Shown piece by piece: positions 49,235-51,863 of a stretch of DNA of 64,000 nt; position 1 is the first letter of the stretch, and each line of letters starts with the position of its first letter. Source of the DNA: Methylosinus sp. Sm6 (lineage in GTDB: Bacteria > Pseudomonadota > Alphaproteobacteria > Rhizobiales > Beijerinckiaceae). The notes under the pieces were generated by a model. The model was not told where the DNA came from, did no database searches, and saw nothing but the letters and a program-made list of their open reading frames with translations. The DNA is taken from positions 62,001 through 126,000 of the forward strand of contig NZ_JAINDZ010000010.1 of the NCBI RefSeq assembly GCF_019802345.1, written 5' to 3'. Both the position numbers and the translations under genes were made by a program.

Positions 49235-49966
49235 TCAGCCGAATTGCGCGAGGCCGGGGAAGGTCTGCAGCAGCCAGAACGACATATTCTGCATCGCTCC
49301 TGTCAGGAAGGCGAGGCCGGTCGCGACCAGCAGGACGCCGACGACTTTTTCGACCTTGCCGAAATGTCGCTTGAAGCGCTGCATGAAGCCCATGAACGGC
49401 CCCATCGCCGCCGCCGCGGCGAGGAACGGCAGGCCGAGTCCGGCCGAATAGACGGCGAGCAGAGCCGCCCCTTTCGCCACAGTCTCCTGCGAGCCGGCGA
49501 CCGCGAGAATGGCGGCGAGAATGGGCCCGATGCAGGGCGTCCAGCCGAAAGCGAAGGCGAGACCCATCACATAGGCGCCGAGCCGGCCGACCGGACGGCC
49601 GACCTCGAGGCGCTTCTCGCGATAGAGCAGGCCGATCTTGAACAGGCCGAGGAAATGCAGCCCCATCACGATGATGGCGACGCCGGCCGCGATCGACAAT
49701 ATTTCGAGATTGGCGCGCAGGACCTTGCCGAACACGCTCGCCGTCGCGCCGAGCGCCACGAACACGGTGGAAAAGCCGGCGACGAACAAAAGCGCGGCGA
49801 TCAGCACGTCGCGCCGCGCGCGCGGCTTGCCCCCGGCCGTCAGCTCCTCGAGGGTCGCTCCGGCGATGAAGGTGAGATAGGGCGGCACCAGCGGCAGCAC
49901 GCAGGGGGAGAGGAATGAGAGAACGCCCGCCGCGGCGGCGGCGGGAAAGGTGACGTCGGCCGCCAT
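49235..49966 (-). CDS. ccdA: Cytochrome c biogenesis protein CcdA
   Basis: A 243-residue protein with six membrane helices. It has the CcdA signature GVLSFLSPCVLPLVPPYLTFIAG, with one redox Cys flanked by prolines, and FGWTPCIGPILAAIL, with the second Cys. CcdA carries electrons from thioredoxin across the inner membrane to reduce periplasmic thiols used in cytochrome c maturation or other disulfide reduction. No ccm genes are nearby. It precedes a methyltransferase gene in the same direction. Confidence 0.93.
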   Translation of the reverse strand: MAADVTFPAAAAAGVLSFLSPCVLPLVPPYLTFIAGATLEELTAGGKPRARRDVLIAALLFVAGFSTVFVALGATASVFGKVLRANLEILSIAAGVAIIVMGLHFLGLFKIGLLYREKRLEVGRPVGRLGAYVMGLAFAFGWTPCIGPILAAILAVAGSQETVAKGAALLAVYSAGLGLPFLAAAAAMGPFMGFMQRFKRHFGKVEKVVGVLLVATGLAFLTGAMQNMSFWLLQTFPGLAQFG

Positions 49967-50102: not shown

Positions 50103-51020
50103 CTATTCGATCGTCATTCCGATGCGCTCCCAGCGCACGCCCGAAGGCCCTGTCGAGAACCAAATCTGCCGCGCCTTGCCGACGAGATCGGCGAGCGGCA
50201 CGAAGCCGAAGCTGCGCGAGTCCCTGGTCTCGTCGCGGTTGTCCCCGAGCACGAACACCGCCGCCGGCGGGACCACCCATTCGGCGTCGGGGACGATATT
50301 TGCCTTGCCCCATTCCACGCGCCACTCGCGCGCGTCCGACTGCTCGCGGACCACGATCCGATCACCCTCGATCGCTTCGGCGCCCGAGATGCGCGCGCCA
50401 TTGACGAACAGCGCGCGGCCCCGCAGCGCGATATGGTCTCCCGGCAGTCCGATCACGCGCTTGATGTAGTAGAGCGTGCGATCGTCCGGGTAGACGAAGA
50501 CGCCGGCGTCGCCGCGCGACACGCGCCCTTTGCACAGCGGACAATTGTAGCGCATGTCGACGAAGAAATAATCGCCGCGCAGCAGGGTGGGCGCCATGCC
50601 GTCGGCCGGAGTGGTGAAGGACCGCACCAGATGCGCGTTCACGCCGCTGACGAGACCAAAATAAAGCGCGGCGTTGCCGAGGAGAAGCAGCAGGGCGTAG
50701 AGTCCGCCGACCTGCCACTCGCGACGCGGCGCAGGCTCCGCGCGCGCCTCTCGCCAGGCGTCGACGATCGAGGCCGCCCAGATGCCGAGGGTGAGGAGCG
50801 CCACCGCCGCGAGCAACGGCGCCATCAGCCGACTCGGCGCATAGAGAGTGGCGAGGACGCCGGCGGGCGCGCCCGCAAGCGCAAAAGCGAGGAAGGTCCA
50901 CAGCGCCTTGTCGAGCGCGCCATTGTGGAGCTGACCGAGCCCGGGCAGCGCAAGCGACAGCAGCGCGGCGACGACCGAGCGCCGTGGCGTGGCGTTTAAG
51001 AGCGAATTGAGGCCTGTCAT
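50103..51020 (-). CDS. Signal peptidase I-like (S26) protein lacking the nucleophile serine
   Basis: The protein has 305 residues. An N-terminal membrane domain (about 14-90, beginning LPGLGQLHNGALDKALW) is followed by a helix at 105-125 and an S26 domain. In TTPADGMAPTLLRGDYFFVD the residue before the conserved Met is Gly141, where signal peptidases have the catalytic Ser (P-S-x-S-M-x-P-T-L). The general-base Lys is present as Lys187 in YYIKRVIGLPGD, and box E reads LGDNRDETRDSRSFGFV. An unusual CPLC pair (160-163) sits between. The codon is GGC; one base change would give AGC (Ser). It is encoded after an ECF sigma factor and a small membrane protein, so a non-proteolytic or regulatory role is possible. 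Confidence 0.85.
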   Translation of the reverse strand: MTGLNSLLNATPRRSVVAALLSLALPGLGQLHNGALDKALWTFLAFALAGAPAGVLATLYAPSRLMAPLLAAVALLTLGIWAASIVDAWREARAEPAPRREWQVGGLYALLLLLGNAALYFGLVSGVNAHLVRSFTTPADGMAPTLLRGDYFFVDMRYNCPLCKGRVSRGDAGVFVYPDDRTLYYIKRVIGLPGDHIALRGRALFVNGARISGAEAIEGDRIVVREQSDAREWRVEWGKANIVPDAEWVVPPAAVFVLGDNRDETRDSRSFGFVPLADLVGKARQIWFSTGPSGVRWERIGMTIE

Positions 51021-51052
51021 GTGAATGCTCCATTGCGGGAGGATGGATCGCG

Positions 51053-51277
51053 TCACTGCGCGACCGCGGCGATAAAGGCGAAGACCGCGAATTCGCCGGC
51101 GAACAGCGCGCCGCACAGAGCGCTCGCGGCGAGAGCGACGAAGCGCCAGAGGGTGAGCGGTCGCGGGGCGGGCGCCTGCCGGCTCTCCCGCGCCAGAGCC
51201 GCGACTCGCCGAGCGAAATCCGGCGGAGGCCGATGCCCCGCGGCGGCGAAGAATGGGTCGAGGTCGTCAGCCATCAT
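51053..51277 (-). CDS. Small single-helix membrane protein, possible anti-sigma factor
   Basis: The product has 74 residues: a cytoplasmic part of about 42 residues (DDLDPFFAAAGHRPPPDFARRVAALARE) and one membrane helix at about 45-68 ending at AAVAQ. It overlaps the ECF sigma gene by 11 bases, the place expected of an anti-sigma factor, and the FARRVAALA helix could contact sigma. It has no His-Cys zinc motif of the ZAS type and almost no periplasmic part, so if it is an anti-sigma factor it is a minimal one. A GGAG precedes ATG 51277. Confidence 0.6.
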   Translation of the reverse strand: MMADDLDPFFAAAGHRPPPDFARRVAALARESRQAPAPRPLTLWRFVALAASALCGALFAGEFAVFAFIAAVAQ

Positions 51278-51812
51278 CCATCTCCACTATTCGTCTGAGC
51301 TTCATTCGCGCACGATGAAGCCGCAGTTTCGCGGCGCCCGGCGAGCAGCCCTCGAGCCGCGCGATCGATGCGAGATCGAGACCCTCGTCGTAGCTCGCGG
51401 CGAGCAGGCTGCGCTCGGCGGGCGCGAGCCGTTCGAGCGCGGCGGCGAGCAGCGCGCGTCGTTGCTTGTCTTCGAGCACGGCGTCCGGACGCGGCTCTTG
51501 TGAGGGCGCGTTCAGCGCCTCGTCTTCGTCGAATGTCTCGCGCCGGCGCGACGCCGCGCGGAGATGGCCGAGCGCCAGATTGCGGGCGATCGCGAGTATC
51601 CAGGTCGACGCCGCTCCACGCTTCGGATCGAAACTCCCGGCGTTGCGCCACACGCGCAGGAACGCCTCCTGCGCAATGTCTTCGCTGGTTGCGGCGTCGA
51701 GGCCCATGCGGCCGAGAAAGCCGAACACGCGGCCCTGCTCCGCCTCGACCACGCGGGCGAAGGCGACGCCATCGCCCATCGCCGCTCTGCAGAGATTTGA
51801 GGTGCTGTCCAA
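51267..51812 (-). CDS. ECF-type RNA polymerase sigma factor
   Basis: The 181-residue protein has sigma2 (VVEAEQGRVFGFLGRMGLDAATSEDIAQEAFLRVWRNAGSFDPKRGAASTWILAIARNLALGHLR) and sigma4 (LLAAALERLAPAERSLLAASYDEGLDLASIARLEGCSPGAAKLRLHRARMKLRRI). It starts at TTG 51812, preceded by GGAG; the next ATG (51779) would cut into the conserved N-terminal helix. It heads an operon with a small membrane protein and a signal-peptidase-like protein. An ECF-type promoter (GGTAACC-N16-GTATAA) directly upstream suggests that it controls its own expression. Confidence 0.92.
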   Translation of the reverse strand: MDSTSNLCRAAMGDGVAFARVVEAEQGRVFGFLGRMGLDAATSEDIAQEAFLRVWRNAGSFDPKRGAASTWILAIARNLALGHLRAASRRRETFDEDEALNAPSQEPRPDAVLEDKQRRALLAAALERLAPAERSLLAASYDEGLDLASIARLEGCSPGAAKLRLHRARMKLRRIVEMDDG

Positions 51813-51834
51813 GGCGCCGCTCCGGTTCCGCGTC

Positions 51835-51863
51835 TTATACCGGCGGCTAAGGAAAAGGTTACC
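51835..51863 (-). promoter_or_regulatory. Putative ECF-type autoregulated promoter
   Basis: On the minus strand, GGTAACC (51863-51857) and GTATAA (51840-51835) are separated by 16 bases, about 23 bases before the sigma gene start. The AAC in the -35 element and the spacing fit ECF sigma promoters, which usually drive their own sigma operon. Confidence 0.6.

Follow-up and report, generated by a model that had tools for sequence, protein, structure and literature searches.

Three described systems come closest to the operon reported here. For E. coli LepB, the available part of PMC2259416 calls Ser88 catalytically important and gives the Ser88 O-gamma, the Ser90 O-gamma and the Lys145 N-zeta as important for activity; a review (PMC12067869), in its available part, labels Ser88 as catalytic and Ser90 as stabilizing, the reverse of PMC2259416 and PMC4049620, both of which are followed here. 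Signal peptidases that act on anti-sigma factors are also known, and the available text of PMC8844934 names RsiV and RsiP as anti-sigma factors treated in this way. The third case is SipA of S. pyogenes, which, in the accessible text of PMC4049620, lacks the catalytic Ser and Lys (having Asp and Gly), retains the peptide cleft and is required for pili to assemble. A sigma-signal-peptidase operon like the present one was not found in the literature by title and abstract opening, a search outside which most subscription papers fell. The parts of the operon are known, their combination appears to be new, and the striking residue change that it carries is local.

The operon lies within a 64,000-nucleotide stretch of DNA from Methylosinus sp. 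Sm6, the whole of which is referred to as the window. Compared with E. coli LepB, its S26 (type I signal peptidase) homologue shares the fold, the Lys general base and the LGDNRD box, whereas it is without the nucleophile Ser and the Ser88 equivalent and has an extra N-terminal region with an LPGxGQxxNG motif, a CxxC pair and an ECF sigma factor as a neighbor. The operon resembles SipP/RsiP/SigP of Bacillus thuringiensis, as presented in the available part of PMC8844934, in that a signal peptidase is linked specifically to an ECF sigma factor and to a membrane anti-sigma factor, here a candidate one; however, SipP is active and cuts the anti-sigma factor, whereas in the present operon the peptidase has no nucleophile and the small protein no ectodomain. 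With SipA, as far as the accessible text of PMC4049620 describes it, the common feature is a signal-peptidase fold without the catalytic Ser, but SipA is also without the Lys and belongs to a pilus cluster, whereas the present protein retains Lys187 and the LGDNRD box, and no pilus gene is found in its operon.

On the minus strand (50103-51862), the promoter-like site is followed in transcription order by the sigma gene, the gene for the 74-aa protein and the S26 gene (Table 1). The initial annotation had described the three genes as those of an ECF sigma factor, a 74-residue single-helix protein and an S26 protein, and all three were found; its coordinates were correct, the interval end at 51863 also covering the promoter-like site. 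All three reading frames (3/3) were open, the sigma stop was overlapped by the start of the 74-aa protein gene, and GGAG was present 7 bases 5' of the S26 ATG (at 51020). The sigma gene matched Pfam Sigma70_r2 (2.2e-18) and Sigma70_r4_2 (3.1e-11) and, among the sigma-region models listed, only those of regions 2 and 4, with none of region 3. Its product was 84.5% identical to the sigma factor of the sister operon (genome G089). A membrane protein gene, CcdA-like by eye, lies directly downstream of S26 on the same strand (49235-49966). No counterpart of this gene was found beside the other operons within the stretches around them, and six window genes neighboring the operon likewise had no match within those stretches.

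Table 1. Coordinates, in the window, of the features of the sigma-S26 operon
Feature	Coordinates	Strand	Basis or comparison
Promoter-like site GTAACC-N16-GTATAA	51835..51862	-	Exact match; ECF-type
ECF sigma factor gene, 181 aa, TTG start as listed	51267..51812	-	Sigma70_r2, Sigma70_r4_2
74-aa single-helix membrane protein, candidate anti-sigma factor	51053..51277	-	Gene position, weak profile matches
S26 (type I signal peptidase) homologue, 305 aa, N-terminal helices	50103..51020	-	Profiles, predicted fold
S26 codon 141 GGC (Gly), nucleophile column	50598..50600	-	AGC in 8/10, AGT in 2/10 operon relatives
S26 codon 139 GCC (Ala), column of E. coli Ser88	50604..50606	-	Ser in 40/42 homologues
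S26 codon 187, general-base Lys, kept	50460..50462	-	Lys also in 41/41 others

The S26 gene translates to a protein that contains FTTPADGMAPTLLRGDYFF, with Gly141 (GGC), YYIKRVIGLPGD, with Lys187, and LGDNRDETRDSRSFG. It matched Pfam Peptidase_S26 (1.6e-32) and TIGR02227 (6.1e-31, 107.5 bits against a cut-off of 47), and an AlphaFold model of the S26 domain, which was built from 10 sequences and is weak (mean pLDDT 65), aligned with E. coli LepB (1t7d) over 159 residues with a Z score of 12.5 and an rmsd of 3.7. In the family profile alignment, Gly141 of the motif PADGM occupies the nucleophile column, which is that of the second Ser of IPSGSM in E. coli LepB, and column 139 aligns with Ser88. 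Lys187 and LGDNRDETRDSR were intact, and the residues kept in the LGDNRD box were D260, N261, R262, D267 and R269. The replacement of Ser by Gly141 with Lys187 and LGDNRD kept, as first annotated, was therefore visible in both the translation and the alignment. From the roles that the available part of PMC2259416 gives to the Ser88 and Ser90 hydroxyls, it follows that the sister protein is without one of them and the window protein without both. Because the Ser88 equivalent and the nucleophile Ser141 have both been lost, the S26 product is most likely dead or near-dead, and its earlier description as probably inactive agrees well with the sequence. Residues 160 to 163 (50532-50543), after the first motif, form a CxxC (YNCPxCK) that was present in 26 of the 42 homologues, including that of the window, while both Cys were absent from the remaining 16; this pattern suggests a disulfide or metal pair.

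Relatives were collected by a scan of one genome per species, which gave 10 loci. Nine of them span the S26 protein, namely, those of Methylovulum, three further Methylococcales MAGs, Thiothrix caldifontis (aligning with an internal gap), a Halothiobacillus MAG, two unclassified proteobacterial MAGs and a Rhodospirillales MAG; at the tenth, in Rhodoblastus acidophilus, a remnant of the gene is left. The closer relative G089, with 76% identity, was added by a family-level search. The order sigma-small protein-S26 was the same in 10/10 relatives, and all 10 had Ser at column 141, encoded by AGC in 8 and AGT in 2. In the order of Thiothrix, the S26 type was found at 32 places, 1 of which was already among the operon relatives, so that 31 were added. 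A joint alignment of 42 distinct proteins showed Ser141 and Lys187 in 41/41 others, with Gly at the nucleophile column in the window protein alone (1/42). As judged from this alignment, Gly141 is private to this genome within the sequences examined. It is not conserved in relatives, either in the same operon (Ser in 10/10) or among the homologues at large, and Gly as a family trait is ruled out by the Ser in all 41. In addition, 25 rows from 24 of 27 S26 loci could be read at the nucleophile and all had Ser, the other three loci (L003 to L005) giving no row. Two variants were seen elsewhere in the motifs: the canonical LepB of the family has Leu, not Met, after the nucleophile, and the S26 protein of L036 has LADN in place of LGDN.

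Since Gly is private to this genome and all relatives have Ser, a local loss is suggested rather than a new kind of sensor. The proposal of the initial annotation that the S26 fold serves in binding or sensing, perhaps as a control on the sigma factor, is unsupported for the family, given Ser and Lys in 41/41; among them are relatives with the same operon, an outcome that the annotation had itself named as refuting, and the promoter evidence (see below) suggests that S26 is an output. Its other proposal, a fresh mutation of AGC to GGC, came closer to the truth, as the change at codon 141 is a single transition, but it is too simple. Column 139, with Ser in 40 of the 42 proteins, is Ala in the window and Gly in the nearest relative, G089, and because it has been lost in both, more than one fresh mutation is indicated. 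The same residues bear on the possibility that GGC was read for AGC through a sequencing or assembly error at one base. Such an error would lie one transition from the codon of 8/10 relatives, in a draft assembly of 162 contigs, but we consider it very improbable in view of the change at column 139, the open frame and the preceding residue, Asp140, which was absent from all 41 other homologues (L120 has Glu there with Ser kept).

From comparison of the sequences, we read the pattern as that of an accessory enzyme eroding step by step within one clade. The best explanation for the locus, which we hold to be probable, is an accessory-peptidase switch whose catalytic center has eroded in this lineage. 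Loss is tolerated nearby, as Rhodoblastus acidophilus, of the same family, keeps only a C-terminal S26 remnant (L045 3824-4180) in which the last 61 residues are recognizable and the catalytic half is absent. Upstream of the remnant there was at most a trace that contained a stop and was not significant (E value of 0.89), and the surrounding stretches showed neither a sigma gene nor a small gene. What speaks against erosion is that the rest of the window S26 protein shows little sign of relaxation, with Lys187 and the LGDNRD box intact. Pairwise dN and dS between the window and sister S26 genes were 0.139 and 0.510, the tree branches were 0.20 and 0.16 for window and sister, respectively, and amino acid changes polarized by L042 fell 16 to the window branch and 14 to the sister branch, with 40 assigned to neither. 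At the most conserved columns, the window protein deviated at 4/53 and the sister at 3/54, and only 2 of the 42 sequences deviated more than the window protein. A general pseudogene was rejected on the basis of the three open frames and rates similar to those of the sister, though the window protein is among the more deviant at conserved columns.

Because the window protein otherwise evolves at about the pace of its sister, either the nucleophile was lost recently or a non-catalytic role remains. The second possibility would make the window protein a retained pseudoenzyme that has lost cutting and kept binding, of signal peptides or of the small protein, with feedback on the sigma factor. That the remainder of the protein is constrained about as much as in the Ser-bearing sister is in keeping with this, as are the retention of all other catalytic boxes, the intact promoter-like site and sigma frame, and the precedent of S. 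pyogenes SipA in the available part of PMC4049620. A recent loss would look alike, however, and with Gly in only 1/42 homologues and near-complete gene loss in Rhodoblastus, we regard a retained pseudoenzyme as possible but doubtful. Whichever applies, the relatives form a natural series, from an intact center through loss of the Ser88 equivalent and then also of the nucleophile to a gene remnant, from which it could be learned whether peptidase activity is needed for the circuit.

A counterpart of the 74-aa protein was present in 11/11 operons. The window protein has one hydrophobic segment by eye, with about 40 residues N-terminal to the helix. Profile matches were weak, those of the window protein all being below threshold: NF052375 matched 4/11 small proteins (best E value of 0.00045), the window protein scoring 16.3 bits against a cut-off of 100; NF010501 (putative anti-sigmaE) matched 3/11 (best E value of 0.022); and Pfam gave DUF3180 in 1/11 only. 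From gene position and these matches, the small protein probably sequesters the sigma factor and is a candidate anti-sigma factor. The C-terminal sequence of 16 of the 19 small proteins is [A/S/T]-x-A-x, so that the chain stops one residue beyond what resembles a signal peptidase site (51056-51067 in the window), and in three (L106, L121 and L128) this ending is broken. A C-terminal A-x-A as a general rule was abandoned, since it was perfect in the first 11 and broken in 3/8 from the order of Thiothrix.

This chain end raises the possibility that in the wider family S26 acts as a site-1 protease whose cutting of the small anti-sigma factor activates the sigma factor, in the manner of SipP and RsiP in the available text of PMC8844934, the circuit here being broken or run by LepB. 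The reading concerns the role in the family and is compatible with loss of the center in the window. S26 adjoins the small membrane protein in 10/10 relatives, and most of the small proteins carry the putative site. However, with one residue past that site there is no ectodomain to remove, 3/19 small proteins break the rule, and the S26 genes that have the site, but for which no sigma gene was seen in the fetched stretch, suggest that S26 is an output; we therefore think a site-1 protease unlikely.

The promoter-like site GTAACC-N16-GTATAA was found upstream of 11/11 operons, 10 with an exact match and that of Halothiobacillus with one mismatch, about 20 to 35 bases from the aligned sigma start. 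The exact pattern occurred in 11 copies in 12 genomes, all in sigma-small protein-S26 operons. A reversed control pattern also gave 11 copies in all in the same 12 genomes, so that about one chance copy per genome is expected and the position of the copies, not their number, is informative. Even when its 16-base form was allowed up to 2 mismatches, the site had no second copy in the window genome. When up to 2 mismatches were allowed in eight genomes, the operon site stood alone in the window genome, G089, the Rhodospirillales MAG and the unclassified MAG G535 (controls of 0, 2, 0 and 1), and the other four had 3, 2, 1 and 1 further sites against controls of 16, 6, 1 and 2, that is, at or below the controls.

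Copies of the site were also seen directly before S26. Thiothrix caldifontis has a second exact copy in this position, inside the operon (L044 3912-3939), and an exact site likewise lies just before S26 in L115, L116, L118 and L121. In the order of Thiothrix, a scan of the 160 bp upstream (up to 2 mismatches, spacer of 15 to 17) found the site before 11/31 S26 genes, where 0.82 was expected from shuffles, and 20/31 were without it. Six of the 11 site-bearing genes (L120, L122, L124, L126, L127 and L130) had no sigma gene in the fetched stretch of about 2 kb upstream; the sites of three of these six were weaker, with a 15-base spacer. Upstream of the sigma gene, sites were found in 6/8 operons of this order (0.34 expected), with none for L123 and only the internal site for L118. 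We infer that GTAACC-N16-GTATAA functions as a promoter and is recognized by this sigma factor. Because site-bearing S26 genes occur without a sigma gene in the fetched stretch, S26 looks like the regulated product, that is, the output of the sigma factor and an inducible accessory signal peptidase. Against this output role stand the 20/31 S26 genes of the order without a site, and other targets of the sigma factor, with weaker promoters, may have escaped the scan.

In the accessory-peptidase switch that we favor, the system would have three members: the ECF sigma factor; a small membrane protein that probably keeps it silent; and, as output, an accessory type I signal peptidase. A signal would free the sigma factor from the small protein, and the active sigma factor would then transcribe its own operon from the dedicated promoter, yielding more peptidase; the added enzyme might ease a bottleneck in export or process particular clients. 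The Ser88 equivalent has been lost in both the window and G089 and Ser141 has become Gly in the window as well, so there the last step is very likely dead. With its sigma factor, minimal membrane regulator, accessory signal peptidase and near-invariant site, this is a small testable system that could tell whether bacteria induce a second signal peptidase on demand, and by what signal. The operon is in this respect a more useful find than the Gly itself, which is a local event. A more far-reaching proposal, which we think improbable, is that of a self-contained ECF circuit, present in both alpha- and gammaproteobacteria, that has no clear target except its own accessory signal peptidase, with the peptidase of the window acting as a non-cutting binder of signal peptides that reports the load of unprocessed export to the sigma factor.

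The operon is compact and sporadically distributed in alpha- and gammaproteobacteria. In overlapping genome samples drawn from larger groups, the S26 type was found at more than 400 bits in 2/397 genomes of the window's family (next best match, 119.5 bits), in 1/385 of the class sample and 1/398 of the phylum sample (in both cases the window's own genome), in 3/251 of the order of Methylovulum (with two more at 140 to 145 bits) and in 1/180 of the order of the Rhodospirillales MAG. Within the window's genus (10 genomes including its own), only its own genome had the S26 type. In the order of Thiothrix the S26 type was common (27/63 genomes, E values up to 1e-60), and a sigma gene lay beside S26 on the same strand for 8/31 S26 genes. 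Judging by these occurrences, the module outside the order of Thiothrix resembles a mobile or frequently lost cassette. A known plasmid or viral origin was not supported, as 0/376 matching plasmid records covered 80% of the protein and a viral-contig scan gave 18 pattern matches with no relative among them.

A second, higher-scoring S26 gene was present in 10/11 host genomes, the exception being a MAG with a single S26 match. The initial annotation had raised the matter of another intact lepB, and a separate canonical LepB with IPSGSM was found in the window genome; by its sequence, the housekeeping signal-peptidase function is covered by this intact-looking enzyme. Besides LepB and the operon copy, three more S26-domain genes were seen in this genome, on contigs C83, C106 and C111 (L003 to L005), and these may be conjugation-type TraF peptidases.
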